This document shows positions 52,794 through 61,966 of a stretch of DNA of 64,000 bases, one piece after another. How positions within the stretch are numbered: position 1 is the stretch's first letter; every line of letters begins with the position of its first letter. Source of the DNA: Thermoplasmatales archaeon (lineage in GTDB: Archaea > Thermoplasmatota > Thermoplasmata > Thermoplasmatales > Thermoplasmataceae). Location of the stretch: contig JAJSLM010000002.1 in assembly GCA_026127925.1 (NCBI GenBank), positions 186,001 to 250,000 on the forward strand, read 5' to 3'. The notes under the pieces were generated by a model, which was not told the origin of the DNA, searched no databases, and worked only from the letters and a program-made list of their open reading frames with translations. Both the position numbers and the translations under genes were made by a program.

Positions 52794-53492
52794 TTGGAAA
52801 AGATCGATTTATCCGAAAGACAGGAAAAACTTCCCATTGGTGTGAACTGCATAGACGAAGTTATGAGCGGTGGATTAGAGCCTGAGGTAATAACAGAGAT
52901 ATACGGAGAAGGCGGTTCTGGAAAATCGAATCTGTGCATGCAGTTTGCCATATCATCGATAAGAAGTGGGAAAAAGGTGATATTTCTTGACACTGAGGGT
53001 TTTTCAGCCGAAAGGTTTTCGCAGGTCTCCGGCAGAGATATCGAAATGCTTAACGAGATGATGATGTTCAGAATATCATCGCTGGAGGATCAGGAATTAA
53101 CACTCCTAAGGTTATCTAAAATGATCGAGAAGACTAGACCTGTGGGTTTGCTGATCATAGATTCGTTCACAGAATTCTTCAGATTGGAACCATTTCCCGA
53201 TGCATCTTCTAGAGCACTCGCGTTTCAAAGGGAAGTATCATCTCTCACTTCCATACTTCTCAAATTTAAGATCCCGATCCTCATAACAAATCAGATATAT
53301 CAGGACCCCTCGTCTGGTGAACTCCATCCTTTTGGAGGGTACGTGATCGATCATGCAGTCAAGGCAATATACAGCATAGAGAAACTTCCTGAAGGAAAAA
53401 GGCGAATCTCTGTGGTAAAGCACAGGGCAATCCGTGAAGGAAATTTTGCTGAATTTCGGATCACCGATTATGGGATATCGTGTGAGGGATAA
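52794..53492 (+). CDS. radB: RadB recombinase paralogue
   Basis: 232 residues with a TTG start ~26 bases after an AT-rich TATA element near 52762-52774. RecA-family core only, without the N-terminal helix-hairpin-helix of RadA: Walker A IYGEGGSGKSNLCMQF near residue 38, KVIFLDTEGFSAERF, Walker B VGLLIIDSFTEFFRL near 120, and ITNQIYQD. RadB assists RadA in euryarchaeal recombinational repair. It is followed after 2 bases by fen, forming a repair/replication operon. Confidence 0.93.
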   Translation: MEKIDLSERQEKLPIGVNCIDEVMSGGLEPEVITEIYGEGGSGKSNLCMQFAISSIRSGKKVIFLDTEGFSAERFSQVSGRDIEMLNEMMMFRISSLEDQELTLLRLSKMIEKTRPVGLLIIDSFTEFFRLEPFPDASSRALAFQREVSSLTSILLKFKIPILITNQIYQDPSSGELHPFGGYVIDHAVKAIYSIEKLPEGKRRISVVKHRAIREGNFAEFRITDYGISCEG

Positions 53493-53494
53493 AT

Positions 53495-54523
53495 GTGGGG
53501 GTAGCAATATCAGATATATTGGTTAAGCACGAAACAAAACTTAAGGATCACAAGGGAGAACGGGTGAGCATAGATGGTTATAACGTCCTGTATCAATTTC
53601 TCAGCAGTATAAGGCAACCGGATGGCACTGCATTAATGGACCACAATGGCCATGTAACATCTCATCTCTCAGGTCTCTTTTATCGTACGATGAACCTGAT
53701 TGAGGCAGGAATAAAACCCATTTATGTATTTGATGGCAAACCATCTGTGCTCAAAAACAGGACAATAGAGGAGCGACGCCTTATCAAGGAAAAGGCCAGG
53801 ATAGAACTTGAGGAAGCCATTGCTGCGGGTGAGCAGGAAAAGATAAGGAGCCTTTCATCGCGGATAAATTATATCTCGAAAGATATGGTTGACGAATCGA
53901 TAGAGCTCCTGAACTCTATGGGAATCCCCAGCGTAGTAGCTCCTTCTGAAGGCGAGGCGTTCGCATCTGCCATGTGCCTCCAAGGCATTGTAAATGGTGT
54001 TGTATCCCAGGACTACGACTGCCTCCTGTTCGGTGCCCCTCGGGTATACAGGAATTTCACTCTGTTCGGGAGGCGGAAAGTGCCGGGCAGGAGCATTTAC
54101 GTCAATGTCTCCCCTGAAATAATATACCTTGGGGAGAGCCTTGAGGCTCTCGAAATAACAAGGGAGCAGCTCATTTACATTGGCATCATGGTTGGAACAG
54201 ATTTCAATAAAGGTCTCAAAAAGGTCGGTGCGAAAACAGCGCTGAAGTTGATAAAAAAGTACGGAGACATACATTCTGTGCTCAGGGAAAGAAATGAAAC
54301 TATTGACAACCTTGATGACGTTATCGAATTGTTCATGAACAAGCTTGACGTATCCAAAGTCGATATTTCTCTGCGAAAACCCGACAGAGAAAAAATACTT
54401 GGGTTTTTGTGTGACAAACACGATTTCACTCCAGAACGAATAAAGCCTTACATCGAAACACTGGAATCGAGCTTTGGTAACCTTTCGCAAAGTAGCCTTG
54501 ATGCCTTCGGGTCTCCTCATTGA
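53495..54523 (+). CDS. fen: Flap endonuclease 1
   Basis: 342 residues, GTG start giving MGVAISDILV as in other FEN1 proteins. Structure-specific 5-prime flap nuclease for Okazaki fragment maturation and repair. Metal-binding acids lie in VSIDGYNVLYQF, YVFDGKPS, VAPSEGEAFASAM, SQDYDCLLFG and MVGTDFNKG. A helix-3-turn-helix DNA-binding part follows, and the C-terminus has the PCNA-binding box QSSLDAFG. Confidence 0.95.
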   Translation: MGVAISDILVKHETKLKDHKGERVSIDGYNVLYQFLSSIRQPDGTALMDHNGHVTSHLSGLFYRTMNLIEAGIKPIYVFDGKPSVLKNRTIEERRLIKEKARIELEEAIAAGEQEKIRSLSSRINYISKDMVDESIELLNSMGIPSVVAPSEGEAFASAMCLQGIVNGVVSQDYDCLLFGAPRVYRNFTLFGRRKVPGRSIYVNVSPEIIYLGESLEALEITREQLIYIGIMVGTDFNKGLKKVGAKTALKLIKKYGDIHSVLRERNETIDNLDDVIELFMNKLDVSKVDISLRKPDREKILGFLCDKHDFTPERIKPYIETLESSFGNLSQSSLDAFGSPH

Positions 54524-54580
54524 TTCATAATATTATAAAAATACATTAAGTATAAATATTGGAATATATTATATATTTCA

Positions 54581-54751
54581 ATGAATGCCAATAAGTTAAC
54601 TCTTGTAGACATTTCGCACGTCTCAAAGAGAGGTAGTTCATTAAGGATCACCATCCCAAAAAAGGTTTCAGAGAAACTTGGAATAAATCCAGAAGACATC
54701 CTTGGATTCTACTTCGACGGAAGCGAGATGATCATAGAAAAAGTAAAGTGA
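54581..54751 (+). CDS. AbrB/SpoVT-like DNA-binding protein
   Basis: 56 residues: MNANKLTLVDISHVSKRGS, then LRITIPKKVSEKLGINPED, and a final FYFDGSEMIIEKVK. This is the swapped-hairpin AbrB fold. TATA TATAAATATT near 54551-54560 lies about 26 bases before the ATG. It is a stand-alone gene, convergent with tyrS 13 bases away. Archaeal relatives regulate their own and other genes; a target is not evident. Confidence 0.85.
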   Translation: MNANKLTLVDISHVSKRGSSLRITIPKKVSEKLGINPEDILGFYFDGSEMIIEKVK

Positions 54752-54764
54752 TTATAGAACCGAT

Positions 54765-55763
54765 TTATTGGCCGGAATCGGCTAAAAGAACTTTCCTCGC
54801 AGGCGCCACAAGCTTATCCAGTGATATTGTTGCGGCTTCCTTTAAATCTATCGGATGGATATTACCTTCCGAATATTCTTTTTCCAACTCAGAGAATGTA
54901 CCGAATGATATGTCTCCACCTTTTCCGATAGGTCGTTCGATGGTGACTGTACTGTTCCATGGGAATATAATATAGTGAAAAATGTCTAACACGGGGTTGT
55001 TTTCCTTCTGCTTCATTGGGCAGAATGCCTTTTTCATCTTCTCAGAAATTTCCTGTAGTGAATCGGACATCAGGATGGCAGCACCCGGATCACTCTTTGA
55101 CATCTTGACGAATGTATCCATCCTACCGCTTCCTTTCAAGCTGCCCATGAGAGGTGCGTGTGCGCAAACTACCTTCTTTTTCCTGAGCTTATCTGCAACA
55201 TCTCTTGCCAGCATGTGGGCGTGTCTTTGATCCATTCCGCCCAAGGCGATGTCCACGTCAAGATAGAATATATCTGTAACCTGCATTATGGGATATATGT
55301 ACTTGCTGAAATCTTTGTCAGCCTCATCCTCCGTTCGGCCCATTATGGGAAGCGATCTTCTCAGCCGCGTGAGGCTAGAAGCCTTGGCCACCCTGAGGAA
55401 CATTTCCCAGTAGTCAGGATCGCTGACAAGATCCTTGGCCCAGGTGAATTTTATCTTGTCCGACAGGCCCACAGCGAGCATGCTTTTCCTTATCTGCTCG
55501 CCGCTCTTCCTTATCGCTTCCAGATCCCCACCGAGCTTATCATTTATCATTGCGTGCCAGTCCGCCAGGAGAATGGTGAGATCAATACCCATACCAGAAA
55601 CCTCGTTGAACTTCTTTGGCCACATTAGCCCTATGGCGATGTGCGGTATTCCGGAAGGTTCGAAGCCGCAGTAGGCAGTTACTTTTTTTCCGGACAGGTT
55701 GTTAAATTCCTCCGGAGTTATTATCTCGGCCATGTTCCCTGAGAAAGTTTCGAGTGAAAGCAT
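54765..55763 (-). CDS. tyrS: Tyrosyl-tRNA synthetase
   Basis: 332 residues, archaeal/eukaryal-type class I enzyme. Motifs: AYCGFEPSGIPHIAIGLM (HIGH-like), LTILLADWHAMINDKLGG, YPIMQVTDIFYLDVDIALGG, MDQRHAHMLARDVAD, and VKMSKSDPGAAI (KMSKS). Last gene of the smc-scpA operon, starting 8 bases after the Cas4-like nuclease gene. Confidence 0.93.
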   Translation of the reverse strand: MLSLETFSGNMAEIITPEEFNNLSGKKVTAYCGFEPSGIPHIAIGLMWPKKFNEVSGMGIDLTILLADWHAMINDKLGGDLEAIRKSGEQIRKSMLAVGLSDKIKFTWAKDLVSDPDYWEMFLRVAKASSLTRLRRSLPIMGRTEDEADKDFSKYIYPIMQVTDIFYLDVDIALGGMDQRHAHMLARDVADKLRKKKVVCAHAPLMGSLKGSGRMDTFVKMSKSDPGAAILMSDSLQEISEKMKKAFCPMKQKENNPVLDIFHYIIFPWNSTVTIERPIGKGGDISFGTFSELEKEYSEGNIHPIDLKEAATISLDKLVAPARKVLLADSGQ

Positions 55764-55771
55764 TTTCCAAG

Positions 55772-56290
55772 TTATCTCTCTTTTCGTATTAAGCTTTGTT
55801 CGCAGATCTCGTTAAACGAACAGCGCAAGCACCTGACCCTGCTCTGGTGATTCATTATCGGTTCTGCATACTGAGACCGCATTTCATTCAAAACGTAAAG
55901 GAGGCGATCACGTGTGTGCTCATCATTTTTCAGGACAAATGCCCTGTTATTATACTTCAGGACACCGTAAGGGACCTTATATTTTGGATAATTTTCCTCA
56001 AGTATCAGGAAGTATGCGGCCATCTGGAATACGTGCCCCTCCTTGGGGTAATCTGAATTTCCGCTCTTGTATTCGAAAGGTATCATCCTGTGTCGTTTTC
56101 TCTTTATCATGTCTGGTTTGCCAGATACCCCGTACTTTTCCGAGCGAAGAATTTTTCCATTTGAACTGAGGTCCTGGTATATCCTTTTTCCAGCGGGTAT
56201 CGAAAACCTCTTCCTCGCCCTGAGGAGAAAATAAATGGCAATGATCGATAAGAAAAGAACAAAGAACAGTATGAGCAAAAGTAATGTCAA
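55772..56290 (-). CDS. Membrane-anchored Cas4-like nuclease, C-terminal half
   Basis: 172 residues. An N-terminal membrane helix (LLLLILFFVLFLSIIAIYFLL) is followed by a PD-(D/E)XK nuclease: GKPDMI near residue 57 (catalytic Asp), IPFEYKSG near 71 (E-x-K), and the QMAAY motif near 90. At the end are Cys154, Cys157 and Cys163 (CLRCSFNEIC), three of the four ligands of the Cas4 [4Fe-4S] cluster. The fourth, normally N-terminal, is missing here but present in the neighbouring 82-residue protein. ATGA-type overlap with that gene. No CRISPR locus is nearby, so a housekeeping role in DNA repair or segregation is more likely than adaptation. Confidence 0.8.
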   Translation of the reverse strand: MTLLLLILFFVLFLSIIAIYFLLRARKRFSIPAGKRIYQDLSSNGKILRSEKYGVSGKPDMIKRKRHRMIPFEYKSGNSDYPKEGHVFQMAAYFLILEENYPKYKVPYGVLKYNNRAFVLKNDEHTRDRLLYVLNEMRSQYAEPIMNHQSRVRCLRCSFNEICEQSLIRKER

Positions 56291-56535
56291 CGAATCAATC
56301 CAACCAGCACAATGATCGCAGCTGCTGCAACTATAACCAGCGAGATAATGGCTGCTTTAATGAAGCCGTACTTGGCAAGGAGAAATCTATGTCTTCTCGT
56401 TCCTCTCCTGAACCTTTTTGATGTTTCTTTCGATCTCGGGTAACCTTCCTTGTCCATGTACCAGGCAACAGAGCAGAAAACATATTCTGAAATCTCTGTA
56501 GCGCTGATGTAATCCTTATCCGAAGCTTTCTTCAT
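56287..56535 (-). CDS. N-terminal half of a split Cas4-like protein with membrane helix
   Basis: 82 residues. Residues 9-52 (ISATEISEYVFCSVAWYMDK, then the basic RFRRGTRRHRFLL) match the start of Cas4: the first Fe-S Cys (Cys21) and the helix ending in G-x-x-x-H. Residues ~57-82 are one membrane helix. The stop overlaps the start of the nuclease half by one ATGA. Read together, the two make a Cas4 in which a two-helix membrane hairpin separates the first Cys from the nuclease, encoded as two chains. A frameshift in a once-single gene is the alternative. Confidence 0.75.
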   Translation of the reverse strand: MKKASDKDYISATEISEYVFCSVAWYMDKEGYPRSKETSKRFRRGTRRHRFLLAKYGFIKAAIISLVIVAAAAIIVLVGLIR

Positions 56536-57305
56536 AGGATCTTTCTGATCACGATGTTTGAGAACGGACTCTCCTGCTCAAGTGCTATCTTCTTTTCCCG
56601 GGCTAGGAACATGCAATATACAAAGAAGGAGGCAGGGCTGATTTCAAGGTCTTTCCAGACACTTTCCAGCATCAGGCTCTGAGATTCGTAGCTCATTATA
56701 TGCTCATAAACTCTCTCTATTTCTCTGGCAGGTTCCTCAGAATGCAGCGATTCCACAATCTCGTCGAATGACACAGTAACATCGTTGGTCTGTCTGGGCT
56801 TCCTGGAATAGGAGCGTTCGTGTATATATGCCTCTTTCATGGCGCTGAGGAGTTCGATCAGGAACACTTTCCTGTTCTCCCTGTGTCTTACAGGTTCGCG
56901 TATCTCAAGCTCTATTGGTTCTGCAAAATTGGCGTAGGTATCAAAGGCCTGATCATCATCGATAAAATCTTCCTCCTGGACAGTCCTCTTCTCTATGGAC
57001 ATCTCTGATTTCTGCCTGAGAATCTTCCACGCTTCGTAAATCAGAAAGCCTGCTGCTCCAAAATCCCTGAAATCCGCGTCAACAATTTCTGAGAAAATCC
57101 TTGTGAACGATCTTAGGTCTATATTCCATGGATCGATCTTTCCATCCATGCACATTCTGAACAAGGAAGCTATTGTCCTTTCAACAGGATTATTATATTC
57201 AACTATTGTGCCCTCGCTCTCAAGTATGTCTGTGTAGAACTTTGTATCCGTTTCCAAGATTGTTCCCTGCACAATTATACTGTTCATTATTTCTTCCTGA
57301 TTCAT
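56532..57305 (-). CDS. scpA: Segregation and condensation protein A (kleisin)
   Basis: 257 residues. Bridges the heads of the SMC dimer in chromosome organisation. N-terminal region NPVERTIASLFRMCMDGKID, then PWNIDLRSFTRIFSEI, resembles the helical SMC-neck-binding domain; an acidic linker is followed by a C-terminal winged helix (FFVYCMFLAREKKIALEQE) that docks on the SMC cap. It overlaps smc by 4 bases upstream and the split Cas4 gene by 4 bases downstream. ScpB is not in the operon. Confidence 0.88.
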   Translation of the reverse strand: MNQEEIMNSIIVQGTILETDTKFYTDILESEGTIVEYNNPVERTIASLFRMCMDGKIDPWNIDLRSFTRIFSEIVDADFRDFGAAGFLIYEAWKILRQKSEMSIEKRTVQEEDFIDDDQAFDTYANFAEPIELEIREPVRHRENRKVFLIELLSAMKEAYIHERSYSRKPRQTNDVTVSFDEIVESLHSEEPAREIERVYEHIMSYESQSLMLESVWKDLEISPASFFVYCMFLAREKKIALEQESPFSNIVIRKIL

Positions 57306-60300
57306 CCACCCACCTCCGGATCATCTCCGCCATCTATGAATTTTTCAAAAACATCTGTGTTTTCATCATCCATCGTAGTTACGCCTATCACGTTATCTGC
57401 ATACTTTAACATCGCCTTTCTAAGAGAAACAGTGAAAACCTGCGAAGTGAATGAATTGCGCTTAAACATCTTGCCAACCCTTTCTGCATTGGCTCCATCG
57501 AGGAACATGTCAACCTCGTCAAGGTAATATATAGGTGACGGGTTTGTTCTCTGCAGAGCCATAATGAACGACAATGCCGTCAAGCTCTTTTCACCGCCAC
57601 TGAGCGCTTCCACCTTTGAAAATCCTTTGCCCTTCGGATTCGCCCTGATGTATATCTCTGAGTTCAGGGGGTCCTTGTCACTAGAAATCTCCAGAAAAGC
57701 TTCACCCCCATCCGAGATTTCGCGGTATATCTCACTCATCATTCTGCTTATTTTTGTGAACGTTTCCATAAATATGACCCGTTTTTGGTTGTTTAACTTA
57801 TCTGTAAGTGCCTCAAGGCTGGATTTCTCTTCTCTGAATCCAGAGATGTCCTTTTCAATTTCTTCCAAGCTCTTAGTAACCTCGGAATACTCCTCTATTG
57901 CTTTTTGGTTCACTGGACCAAGAGCATTAAGATCAGAGGTGCACGCGTCCATATCCCTCTTGGCCTGCGAATCCGATTTTATCTCCTCCAGCACTTCTCC
58001 GCCGTTTTCCTCCATCTCCCTGTTAAGTTCGGATCTGCGCGACTCCAGGCTGTTCATCTTTATATTTATCTCCAGGATCAAATCGTTCTTTGTAGTCGCC
58101 AGTGATTTTTCCGTCGTTACACGATCTTCTAGGGACCTTATTTCGGAATCAACTTTGTTGATTTCTTCTATCAAGCCTTTATACTGCTCAGAGAGTTTTT
58201 CCTCCACAGATTGTAGTTTGACAAGATCATTTTTCAACTCAGACAACTTAGATTCAAATCCCTGAAGTTCAGACACAGAGTGCACCTTATCCGATTCGAG
58301 CGTATGGATACGGCTATTGAGCTCCTGCATCCTGTCCGTTATGTTCTTCATGTCGGAATCTATCTTTGTCAGTTCAAGTGTAAATTCGCTCACCTGGGCA
58401 CTTAATAAATTCACCTCATCCTGAAGCAATGTCTCTTTCTCTGCAAACTTCGGGGACAGGTCTTTTATCGCCTGGAAAAGATCGTTCTTCTCCAAATCCC
58501 TCGACCTGAGTTCCTCCTTTACTTTCGCAATATCTGCGTCCTTTCCGGAGATTCCAGCATCCAGGTGCTCAAGTTCACGTTTCTCTTTTTCAGTATCTCT
58601 TCTCATATTTTCTATTTGCACCTTTCCGTTCTCAATAATTGATTCCAGTTGCCTGATCTCAGTTGTCTTAGATCCCTCATTCTTTGAACTCTCTCTCAGC
58701 ATCTGTGAGATCCTTTCAAACTCATTATCCTTGAGCTCAATATCCGCGGATGTCTTCTCAAGTTCAGAATTAAGTTCAACAATTCTCGCAGAGAGTTCGT
58801 TTAACCGACCAGTATTGGGTTGGTTGCCCTTTGAGGATTCCGAGTACCCGCCAGTTATGGCACCACTGGCATCAAATATGTCGCCATCGACAGTGACGAG
58901 ACGAACACCGACCATATACTTCCTTGCAGTCTGGACATCCTTCACTATAACTGTGTCCTGGAAGGCATACCATATCGCGCCTTCATACTCAGGATCGTAC
59001 TTTACCTGTTCAAAGACATAACCAACGGCCCCTTCAGAAGAATGTACCGTGATAGCTTTTCCCCTTGGCCTACCAGAAACCATCTTGTTTATGGGAATAA
59101 ATGTGAGCTTTCCAGCTTTCTCCGCCTTAAGGATTCTCAGGCACTCTTCTGCGACCCCGTCGTCATTCACTACCACCGAATTGAGTCTTGAGCCAGCACT
59201 GGATTCGATGGCCTTCCGGTATTGTTCGTCAAATGTGATGAGGTCCCTTATGGTGCCCCTGACGCCGGATAGCCTCCCTGAGTTCCTTGCATCCATTATT
59301 GTTGAAAGCGCCTTTCCGGATGATCCGAGTCTTGATAACGAAACTGCCTGGAGCTGACTGTGTTCGCGTCCAAGTCGGTTGAGCTCATCAAGTATCTGGT
59401 CCTTCTTCTTTCTCAGGTTATCGAGTGCGTTTTTGAGAAGATAGTACTGCTTGTTCACGCTTTCAAAGTTTGTCTTACCTTCGTCATGCTCTTTGCCTAT
59501 CTCTTTCAGTCTCCAGGTTGCGTCCTTTACCTGAAATTCAATGTCCTTGATCCTCTCTTCGCTCGTGCCTAAGCGGGACAATAGCTGCCCCCTCTGATTC
59601 ATCAGCGTCTGTCTCTCTTCCTGGATTTTTTCTATTTGCCGGTTGAGTTCCCTGATCTGGTCGTCCTTTTCCTTTATTTTGTTTTGTTTGTCCAGTATAT
59701 CTGAAGAGTCCATGCTGATCTTCTTTCTAAGTGCTAGGAGCTCAGAATTTCTCTGTGAAAGTTTCTTGTTTAGATCTTCGAGTTTTGAAGAGTTTGAGAT
59801 CTTGTTGGATTCCAACCACGCGATCCTTTTTTTATGGCTTTCTATAGTCTCCTTCGAAGACGATAATTCGTCATCAATCTTCTGTATCCTGTCGTTGAGG
59901 TTATCTATAGAGATTCCCATCTGGGCGATTTCGATTCTCCGGTTCTCAATTGTCGATCGGATCTCTTTCAGTTCGGAGTTCGCTGAACTATCAAGTTGTA
60001 ACTTAAGCTTTTCAAGGTTGATCTTCTTTTCCTCCCTCTTTTGTTCAAGATCTGCGATCCTGGAATTGATGAGCACTATCTCGTTTTCCATGGACTTCCT
60101 GCTTTCTTCAAAGGAGCTGATACTTCTGGCTATGGATACTATCTCAAGGTTCAGTTTTGTTTGCTTTAAATTTTTCAATCTAGTAGAAAGTTCTATGTAT
60201 CTTTCTGCCGCAGCTTTTTCTGATTCTAGCTGATTCCTTCTTATACGAGTCTGTTCAAGCATCACTTCAAGTCTGGTCAAATTATCTTGTATCTTCTGAA

Positions 60301-60850
60301 TTTCACCCTGGGCCTTGTTTATTTCTATATCGAACATTTCTATTCCGGATATAGATTCCAGGAGCTTTCTTCGTTCAAAACCTGTCATCCTGACAACGTT
60401 GTTTATATCCCCCTGCAGTACGAAACTGTAGTTGTCAAGATATATGTGCAGGGAATCGAGAAGAGCCTCAATGTCAAACAAGCGTGCTTTTTTCCCGTTT
60501 ATCAAATAATTAGATTTATAATCGTCGCTATCGCCTATGATCTCCCTGGTTATTACAATCTTCCTATCCATGGGATCTTTGTCTGAGTCTTCTGTATCAA
60601 GAACAACACTTACGCTGGCATAATTCTTTTTACTTGTTCCATCAGGACGCCTGTGAATCAGATCTGAAATTCTTTCCGCTCTCACCGACTTTGACGATCG
60701 TGTCCCCATAACAAAGACAATCGCATCCCCGATGTTGCTCTTTCCGCTCCCATTGGGGCCACTGATAACGGTGAAGCCCTTCCTGAATACAATTCTCCTT
60801 TTGCTACCAAACGATTTGAAATTGTCAACTTCCAGAGATTCGAGGAACAT
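57302..60850 (-). CDS. smc: Chromosome segregation ATPase SMC
   Basis: 1182 residues, full length. N-terminal head with Walker A VISGPNGSGKSNIGDAIVFV near residue 30 and the Q-loop VLQGDINNVVRM; coiled coil to ~510; hinge around 515-660 (SGVRGTIRDLI, GDIFDASGAITGGYSE); returning coiled coil; C-terminal head with signature LSGGEKSLTALSFIMAL and Walker B YYLDEVDMFLDGANA. Forms the ring-shaped dimer that condenses and segregates the chromosome. First gene of a five-gene operon. Confidence 0.96.
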   Translation of the reverse strand: MFLESLEVDNFKSFGSKRRIVFRKGFTVISGPNGSGKSNIGDAIVFVMGTRSSKSVRAERISDLIHRRPDGTSKKNYASVSVVLDTEDSDKDPMDRKIVITREIIGDSDDYKSNYLINGKKARLFDIEALLDSLHIYLDNYSFVLQGDINNVVRMTGFERRKLLESISGIEMFDIEINKAQGEIQKIQDNLTRLEVMLEQTRIRRNQLESEKAAAERYIELSTRLKNLKQTKLNLEIVSIARSISSFEESRKSMENEIVLINSRIADLEQKREEKKINLEKLKLQLDSSANSELKEIRSTIENRRIEIAQMGISIDNLNDRIQKIDDELSSSKETIESHKKRIAWLESNKISNSSKLEDLNKKLSQRNSELLALRKKISMDSSDILDKQNKIKEKDDQIRELNRQIEKIQEERQTLMNQRGQLLSRLGTSEERIKDIEFQVKDATWRLKEIGKEHDEGKTNFESVNKQYYLLKNALDNLRKKKDQILDELNRLGREHSQLQAVSLSRLGSSGKALSTIMDARNSGRLSGVRGTIRDLITFDEQYRKAIESSAGSRLNSVVVNDDGVAEECLRILKAEKAGKLTFIPINKMVSGRPRGKAITVHSSEGAVGYVFEQVKYDPEYEGAIWYAFQDTVIVKDVQTARKYMVGVRLVTVDGDIFDASGAITGGYSESSKGNQPNTGRLNELSARIVELNSELEKTSADIELKDNEFERISQMLRESSKNEGSKTTEIRQLESIIENGKVQIENMRRDTEKEKRELEHLDAGISGKDADIAKVKEELRSRDLEKNDLFQAIKDLSPKFAEKETLLQDEVNLLSAQVSEFTLELTKIDSDMKNITDRMQELNSRIHTLESDKVHSVSELQGFESKLSELKNDLVKLQSVEEKLSEQYKGLIEEINKVDSEIRSLEDRVTTEKSLATTKNDLILEINIKMNSLESRRSELNREMEENGGEVLEEIKSDSQAKRDMDACTSDLNALGPVNQKAIEEYSEVTKSLEEIEKDISGFREEKSSLEALTDKLNNQKRVIFMETFTKISRMMSEIYREISDGGEAFLEISSDKDPLNSEIYIRANPKGKGFSKVEALSGGEKSLTALSFIMALQRTNPSPIYYLDEVDMFLDGANAERVGKMFKRNSFTSQVFTVSLRKAMLKYADNVIGVTTMDDENTDVFEKFIDGGDDPEVGG

Positions 60851-60908
60851 TTTAACACTTGTCCGACACTTGTCAGGTAGTTACCGCATTATAATATATA
60901 ATGATTTT
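60851..60908 (-). promoter_or_regulatory. smc operon promoter with tandem direct repeat
   Basis: Reading toward smc, an AT-rich TATA element (ATTATATATTATAAT, about 60885-60899) is followed by two copies of GACAAGTGT (60865-60873 and 60854-60862) spaced 11 bases, about one helical turn, ending 4 bases before the ATG. This looks like a repressor or activator site in the start region. Confidence 0.5.
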
Positions 60909-60917
60909 TATCGAAGT
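60909..60917 (+). repeat. Target site duplication, smc-side copy
   Basis: TATCGAAGT, identical to 62228-62236, abutting the element end. Confidence 0.85.
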
Positions 60918-60934
60918 GAGTGTGGGACGCTATT

Positions 60935-61966
60935 CTAAGACCTACCCATATTGAACAGATTATGCCACACGCCGGTGCAGAATAAAGCGTTATCTATCCT
61001 GTCATCCCTCCTCTGTGCAACATTCCAGCCAAGCATCTTCTTGTCTGCTGCGAATCCTGATTCTGAATTGCTTCTCTGATGGTACTGTTCCAGATATGGC
61101 ATTGTATTTTCGACAAAATCCCTCATGGTATCCTTCCATTTCTGTGATCCATTGAGTGTCGCATTCTTCTTGGGTATTACAAAAACTTTAGTTCCGCCAA
61201 GCTTGTCCATGTATGAAGGTGATGAATAATACCTGTCCAGACGGATGGAATCCATGTGTATTCGCATAATTGCGAGAAAATCCATCGCCCTGTCATATGC
61301 CTCTCTTTCAGATTTCATTGAAGAACCGAAGGCTATGTAGAGCCGGGATCGCAGATCCATCAGTGCAAAGGAATACGCGAACAACCGTTTCTTATGAATT
61401 TTAGATTTCTTTGTATCTTTACCATGTTCTGGATTCTCCTTTGCCATGTCCTTCAGTTTCTGTGCATACGATTCATAATTCTTCTTTACGGTTAGAGAAT
61501 AACCGGTACCATCACCTGTTGCGTCCGAATTCATTACATCCTTCCTTTTTAATATCAGCGCATGAAGGTTGTGAATTGCAATAATGACCTCATCATCAGA
61601 GTATAATCTTTCAACTGTTTTGTATGATATATCTATTCCGGAAAGCATAGAGAAAACAGCAAGCATGTTCGCAAACATCCTATTTGATTCACCCACAAGC
61701 TGCTTGACCAGGATCAGCTTCACTCTCTGTTCCAGGGTGAGGAGATGCGGGTGACCTGGCCTGGGAATGATCTTTATTGAAGATACAGCTTCCTGTATAA
61801 GGGGATCAAGATCCTTCATTGCTGTTTTGATCCTGGTGGAGAATTCAGGTTCATATGTTCTCCAGTCCCTCTCCTTTTTGGGATGTTCAAGCTTATATTT
61901 CTTTCCCAGTGTGCTGTTGATCTCCTCCAGTTTGTATTGAATATCATCGGACATGATCCTTGGCAT
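60935..61966 (-). CDS. DDE transposase (IS4/IS5-like superfamily, archaeal type)
   Basis: 343 residues, full length for this element. N-terminal helical DNA-binding part (PGHPHLLTLEQRVKLILVKQ), first catalytic Asp in MNSDATGDGTGYSL near residue 145, second in SIRLDRYYSSPSYMDKLGG near 240, and the Glu in QRSNSESGFAADKKMLGW near 305. The stop lies 4 bases inside the left inverted repeat. No frameshift is seen. The exact IS family name cannot be fixed by eye. Confidence 0.85.
   Translation of the reverse strand: MPRIMSDDIQYKLEEINSTLGKKYKLEHPKKERDWRTYEPEFSTRIKTAMKDLDPLIQEAVSSIKIIPRPGHPHLLTLEQRVKLILVKQLVGESNRMFANMLAVFSMLSGIDISYKTVERLYSDDEVIIAIHNLHALILKRKDVMNSDATGDGTGYSLTVKKNYESYAQKLKDMAKENPEHGKDTKKSKIHKKRLFAYSFALMDLRSRLYIAFGSSMKSEREAYDRAMDFLAIMRIHMDSIRLDRYYSSPSYMDKLGGTKVFVIPKKNATLNGSQKWKDTMRDFVENTMPYLEQYHQRSNSESGFAADKKMLGWNVAQRRDDRIDNALFCTGVWHNLFNMGRS

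Follow-up and report, generated by a model that had tools for sequence, protein, structure and literature searches.

Cas4 nucleases are common outside CRISPR systems in archaea. In the genome of an acid-loving archaeon, two short overlapping genes that resemble the two ends of a Cas4 protein lie directly behind smc and scpA, which raises the question of whether they encode a single enzyme made of two chains, and what such an enzyme would do at this place. We refer to the two genes as the N half and the C half, and to the whole stretch of 64,000 nucleotides that was analysed as the window. In our reading, the genes probably encode two subunits of one Cas4-type (RecB/PD-(D/E)XK, iron-staple) nuclease located at the cytoplasmic face of the membrane, with a housekeeping role independent of CRISPR. 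The anatomy, comprising the split, the motifs and the helices, is strongly supported; the assembly of the two chains and their function we infer.

Together with smc, scpA and tyrS, the two halves form one tight minus-strand run (Table 1), with overlaps of four bases at the first three joints: ATGA between smc and scpA and again between scpA and the N half, and TTGA between the two halves. The original prediction had given ATGA both for the joint with scpA and for that between the halves, which is correct for the former, while the latter is TTGA. This overlap suggests translational coupling of the N and C halves. The scpA product scores below the Pfam cut-offs and owes its name to a weak C-terminal match and to its position next to smc. 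No Rfam matches were found in window positions 54000-61500. Directly upstream of smc lies a 343-aa ORF (60935-61966, minus strand) that looks transposase-like by eye, and a RadB-like and a FEN1-like gene (52794-54523, plus strand) are convergent with the smc operon, an arrangement that recurs in most drawn neighbourhoods of the window's family, i.e. the archaeal family to which the source organism belongs.

Table 1. Genes and gene overlap of the smc-tyrS run, in window coordinates.
Feature	Position	Strand	Remarks
smc	57302..60850	-	Operon context, outside the nuclease proper
scpA	56532..57305	-	ATGA overlap with the N half; operon context, not part of the nuclease
N half, 82 aa, ATG start	56287..56535	-	Cys21, Trp25, Gly45 and probable RecB motif-I His49 in the cytoplasmic part; basic stretch; C-terminal membrane helix at about 63-81
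C half, 172 aa, TTG start	55772..56290	-	N-terminal membrane helix, basic stretch, PD-(D/E)XK core with D60, E73, K75, Q89 and Y93, then Cys154/157/163
N/C overlap, TTGA	56287..56290	-	The C-half start TTG shares bases with the N-half stop TGA
tyrS, tyrosyl-tRNA synthetase	54765..55763	-	Directly downstream of the C half; NCBIfam tyrosine--tRNA ligase

The C half is recognized as Cas4 by several models. It scored 68.7 bits against TIGR00372 cas4 (cut-off 65) and 37.1 against PF01930 (Cas_Cas4; cut-off 22.7), was also above the cut-off for PDDEXK_1 (PF12705), and was called Cas4 by NCBIfam and PADLOC models. Profile matches to solved structures included the Cas4 chains 8d3l, 4r5q and 4ic1, and a scan of contigs with the C half as query returned four close relatives. 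The N half alone gave only sub-threshold matches, which fell on the N-terminal end of the PDDEXK_1 and Cas4 models. By score and motifs the two genes belong to the Cas4 superfamily, and by location they are solo-Cas4. They depart from the usual form of Cas4, a single soluble polypeptide, in being two genes with one membrane helix each.

The motifs of the two halves complement each other. The N half contains C21-x3-W25 followed by G45-x3-H49, and all four residues are among those invariant in 19 split N halves, while the C half contains D60, E73, K75, Q89 and Y93 followed by C-x2-C-x5-C (C154, C157 and C163). In a set of 102 non-identical loci that includes split and fused forms, K75 and Y93 occur without exception, D60 and the three cysteines are each kept in 101, Q89 in 100 and E73 in 99, with aspartate in the remaining three. 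In the Cas4 protein SSO0001, the Fe-S cluster is held by Cys32, Cys188, Cys191 and Cys197, and the metal by His62, Asp99 and Glu113 (PMC4176176). The spacing between C21 and H49 is 28 residues as compared with 30 in SSO0001, that between D60 and E73 is 13 as compared with 14 between Asp99 and Glu113, and the C154-x2-C157-x5-C163 pattern is identical to that of cysteines 188, 191 and 197. His49 is the probable RecB motif-I metal ligand, an assignment made by motif order and spacing rather than by structural alignment; the motif-I histidine is missing in a few members of families f3 and f15. Since order and spacing match SSO0001, the N half should contribute one ligand each to the cluster and the metal, with all the others coming from the C half, and the catalytic site, as well as the Fe-S site, should be divided between the two halves, a point that the original prediction had missed. 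These results bear out the original prediction that the overlapping genes are complementary halves of Cas4, and the part of it in which the Fe-S site needs both chains is supported by homology.

A split gene of this kind could arise from a local frameshift or an assembly error, or the two parts could be translated as one protein across the junction, through programmed frameshifting or readthrough of the stop codon, given that the N and C halves overlap and that the corresponding parts form one ORF in other families. We therefore compared the locus among related genomes. Among 41 nearby genomes, 21 encoded relatives, and a profile search detected them in 51 of the 77 genomes of the window's family, mostly as the split pair and in a few cases as a Cas4-Cas1 fusion of CRISPR systems. 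The family yielded 32 non-identical loci, 31 of which are complete on the upstream side, and scpA, the N half, the C half and tyrS are present in all 31, in the order smc-scpA-N half-C half-tyrS. Both the split and the linkage to smc-scpA, whose conservation had been singled out for checking, are thus constant in the complete loci of the family. No fused ORF occupies this site in any of them; the fused relatives belong to other families, lie at other loci and have more membrane helices. The distance from the N stop to the nearest C start varies between -7 and +2 nt across the 31 loci, taking the values -7, -4, -1, 0, +1 and +2 according to genus, and where the gap is 0 the two halves share a reading frame interrupted by a stop codon. 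In every genus, a separate start for the C half lies close to the N stop, be it ATG, TTG, GTG or CTG, the last in a CTGA overlap in one genus, where the start codon is inferred. With such a variable frame relation, one shared slippery site could not work in every genus, which excludes recoding as a general mechanism; a local artefact or assembly error is ruled out by the presence of the split in dozens of independent assemblies. Taken together, we consider a single recoded or misassembled protein exceedingly improbable. Both halves are under purifying selection, with dN/dS values against the nearest relative of 0.094 for the N half and 0.068 for the C half (0.048 for scpA).

Hydropathy analysis revealed one strongly hydrophobic stretch per half, at residues 63-81 in the N half and 1-19 in the C half, in agreement with the predicted terminal helix behind Cys21 in the former and initial helix ahead of the nuclease motifs and the three cysteines in the latter. 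Basic residues flank the helices on the soluble side (KRFRRGTRRHR and RARKRF), which by the positive-inside rule places the soluble parts of both halves probably in the cytoplasm. Folding models were obtained for the separate halves only, from alignments of five rows each. The model of the N half consists of two helices (pLDDT 70.8), and that of the C half was poor (mean pLDDT 52.8); a fold search with the latter gave no significant match, with Cas4 chains at ranks 1, 2 and 4.

A class-wide profile extended the comparison to 400 genomes, 269 of which contained matches, a number that sets a ceiling on the size of the membrane family, since CRISPR Cas4-Cas1 proteins are among the matches. Outside the window's family, most of the matches read are single ORFs of about 330 aa, with usually four hydrophobic helices linking the Cys/His part to the nuclease part, as counted by a crude hydropathy scan whose counts vary. 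Such one-chain relatives occur in many families of the class Thermoplasmata. In families f7 and f20, eight helices are predicted between the two parts; the fused proteins of L151, L152 and L153 from these families are about 540-560 aa long and resemble a duplicated helix bundle.

Further split pairs were found in families f4 (G027), f3 (G333 and G411) and f15, and the genomes G027, G333 and G411 hold a fused copy beside the split pair. Split pairs are also numerous in f15 (L158-L166), whose loci come from GC-rich genomes and make up the second large group. In a tree built on 141 columns, the split proteins of f1 and f3 cluster (97/94), those of f15 stand apart on a long branch and the one from f4 is unresolved. 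One-clade tests neither establish nor reject a common origin of the split forms, with p-AU values of 0.305 for one clade of all split rows and 0.246 for one of f1, f3 and f4. The co-existence of split and fused forms in f3 and f4 suggests that the split form goes back to an old paralogue and did not arise by recent fission in the window's family. The overall pattern looks mainly vertical, unlike that of many defence genes.

The one-chain relatives also suggest how the two halves could be assembled. They carry both parts in one molecule, and since the number of helices between the parts is mostly even, both ends would face the same side of the membrane, which is the reason for proposing a heterodimer. 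In such a complex, the helices of the N half and the C half would pair as a hairpin and bring the halves together on the inner side, and the Fe-S cluster and the metal site would be complete only when both chains are present. With less certainty, the enzyme would be a solo-Cas4 with a housekeeping task, the trimming or degradation of DNA ends at the inner face of the membrane, such as those of entering or broken DNA. This weaker step draws on the membrane location, the conserved catalytic residues, the lack of a tie to CRISPR and the nucleases encoded beside the fused forms.

The position of the pair within the smc-scpA-tyrS run of the window's family may, again less certainly, serve co-expression. 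The original prediction had tied the nuclease to chromosome condensation, and it is indeed conceivable that it partners SMC-ScpA as a membrane-tethered end-processing factor recruited by condensin in segregation or repair, given the invariant gene order with tight overlaps in the 31 complete loci and the FEN1-like and RadB-like genes near most drawn loci of the family. However, among the split and fused loci read, the linkage to smc-scpA occurs only in the window's family. Elsewhere, split pairs adjoin unrelated genes: those of f3 sit behind a 249-aa ORF, that of f4 behind a 162-aa ORF, and those of f15 behind S28e/L24e-like ribosomal genes in 5 of 8 loci read (neighbours named from reading the sequences), while the fused relatives showed no smc-scpA context in 28 drawn neighbourhoods. 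Conversely, genera g6, g10, g18 and g19 of the window's family have smc-scpA but lack the nuclease pair, and complete genomes of the family are among those without it. The operon also includes tyrS, and the gene order may be plain synteny. The related claim that the nuclease takes the place of ScpB proved wrong in its simple sense and was rejected, as ScpB is encoded on another contig of the same genome. With the linkage confined to one family, scpA retained in some relatives that lack the nuclease, and ScpB supplied from elsewhere in the genome, the case for a role in condensation is weak; a partnership with SMC-ScpA appears improbable, and a condensin-specific role is possible in the window's family only.

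The Cas4 label given to the C half by the NCBIfam and PADLOC models could also point to CRISPR adaptation, in which the nuclease would work in trans with Cas1-Cas2 or be a relic of such a system. The window, however, contains no direct repeats of at least 23 bases, and no match to Cas1 was found in the source genome, as anticipated by the claim that no CRISPR array or cas1 is present. The pair lies outside cas loci, in its smc-scpA-tyrS context, and Cas1 is not commoner in the genomes that carry it: among 35 good genomes of the window's family, Cas1 was found in 10 of 18 with the pair and in 14 of 17 without it. Genome G013 encodes a separate 564-aa Cas4-Cas1 fusion in addition to the split pair, and a Cas4/Cas1 gene is likewise part of the CRISPR locus of Cuniculiplasma divulgatum S5 (PMC5155288). 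Finally, all membrane forms in the tree, whether one-chain or split, are set apart from the Cas4-Cas1 outgroup (100/100). A function in CRISPR adaptation is thus very improbable.

The neighbours of the fused forms bring other nucleases into view; they were defined as sequence clusters, with Pfam run on L122, L130 and L104. In eight drawn neighbourhoods, a fused copy lies directly behind a TPD-domain protein, the domain (PF14811) being that of the CDIN1/C15orf41 family. The TPD-domain protein is found at L122:7121-7921 and at seven similar loci, and glmS and a sugar-nucleotide gene often lie convergent to it. At six loci from five families, a fused copy lies directly behind an LTD-PLD-PLD-PKD protein, whose PLD part matches DrmC models (PADLOC). 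This protein (L130:5913-7961, and also L121, L114, L115, L117 and L119) is 650-880 aa long with a C-terminal hydrophobic helix, and may work with the fused membrane Cas4 as a nuclease on the outer face. A necessary partnership with either neighbour is ruled out, since the TPD protein was found in 0 of the 77 genomes of the window's family and the source genome has no match to the LTD model. The membrane-DNA role is for the same reason a suggestion by guilt of association in other families.

With its membrane anchor, and with the DrmC-like protein ahead of the fused form in five families, the nuclease could be pictured as a barrier that destroys viral, conjugative or naked DNA crossing the membrane, acting in some lineages together with the outer-face PLD nuclease. 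The outside location of the PLD protein is, however, read from signal-like and C-terminal helices, the source genome has no such protein by the LTD model, and the inheritance looks mainly vertical, which sets it apart from many defence genes. We regard such a barrier function as unlikely; it is a sharper version of the housekeeping nuclease and not exclusive of it.

For the housekeeping nuclease at the membrane, the wider comparison allows a more general picture, which we put forward tentatively and with somewhat less than even confidence. A membrane-embedded branch of Cas4 would extend through much of Thermoplasmata, several lineages would have cut the gene between the helices, and the metal site and Fe-S cluster would form only when the two membrane proteins meet, giving an assembly-controlled nuclease that guards or processes DNA at the inner membrane face. 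A membrane-bound, class-wide branch limits where the non-CRISPR job of Cas4 can be, namely on DNA at the membrane. The split offers two short, separately expressible subunits, so that mixing experiments can address Fe-S assembly, metal binding and activity. Several lineages have the active site parted between two chains at one and the same point, and the co-existing one-chain relatives can serve as controls.

In the open-access papers searched, we found no description of a split or membrane Cas4. The closest known group is solo-Cas4 (COG1468, PF01930/DUF83), which likewise has the core motifs, the four cysteines, a location outside cas loci and vertical-looking inheritance (Hudaiberdiev et al. 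2017, PMC5704561). Its description leaves Thermoplasma, a split and SMC unmentioned in the main text (PMC5704561). Known Cas4 proteins are one soluble chain, whereas here motif I is set apart from the nuclease core by membrane helices, at which the chain is also cut. SSO0001 and Pcal_0546 (PDB 4ic1 and 4r5q) share the order and spacing of the first cysteine, the motif-I histidine, D, E, the Q/Y motif and C-x2-C-x5-C, but unlike the split pair they are single chains without membrane helices. The one-chain membrane Cas4-like proteins of Thermoplasmata (e.g. L018 and L122) have the same two parts set apart by helices and the same conserved residues; they differ in being one gene, in having usually four helices (eight in f7 and f20) and in their neighbours. 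In AddB and Dna2, an N-terminal cysteine and three C-terminal cysteines clamp a RecB-like nuclease domain. The AddB/RecB and Dna2 iron-staple nucleases share this clamp with the split pair, but they are fused to helicases and are not membrane proteins.
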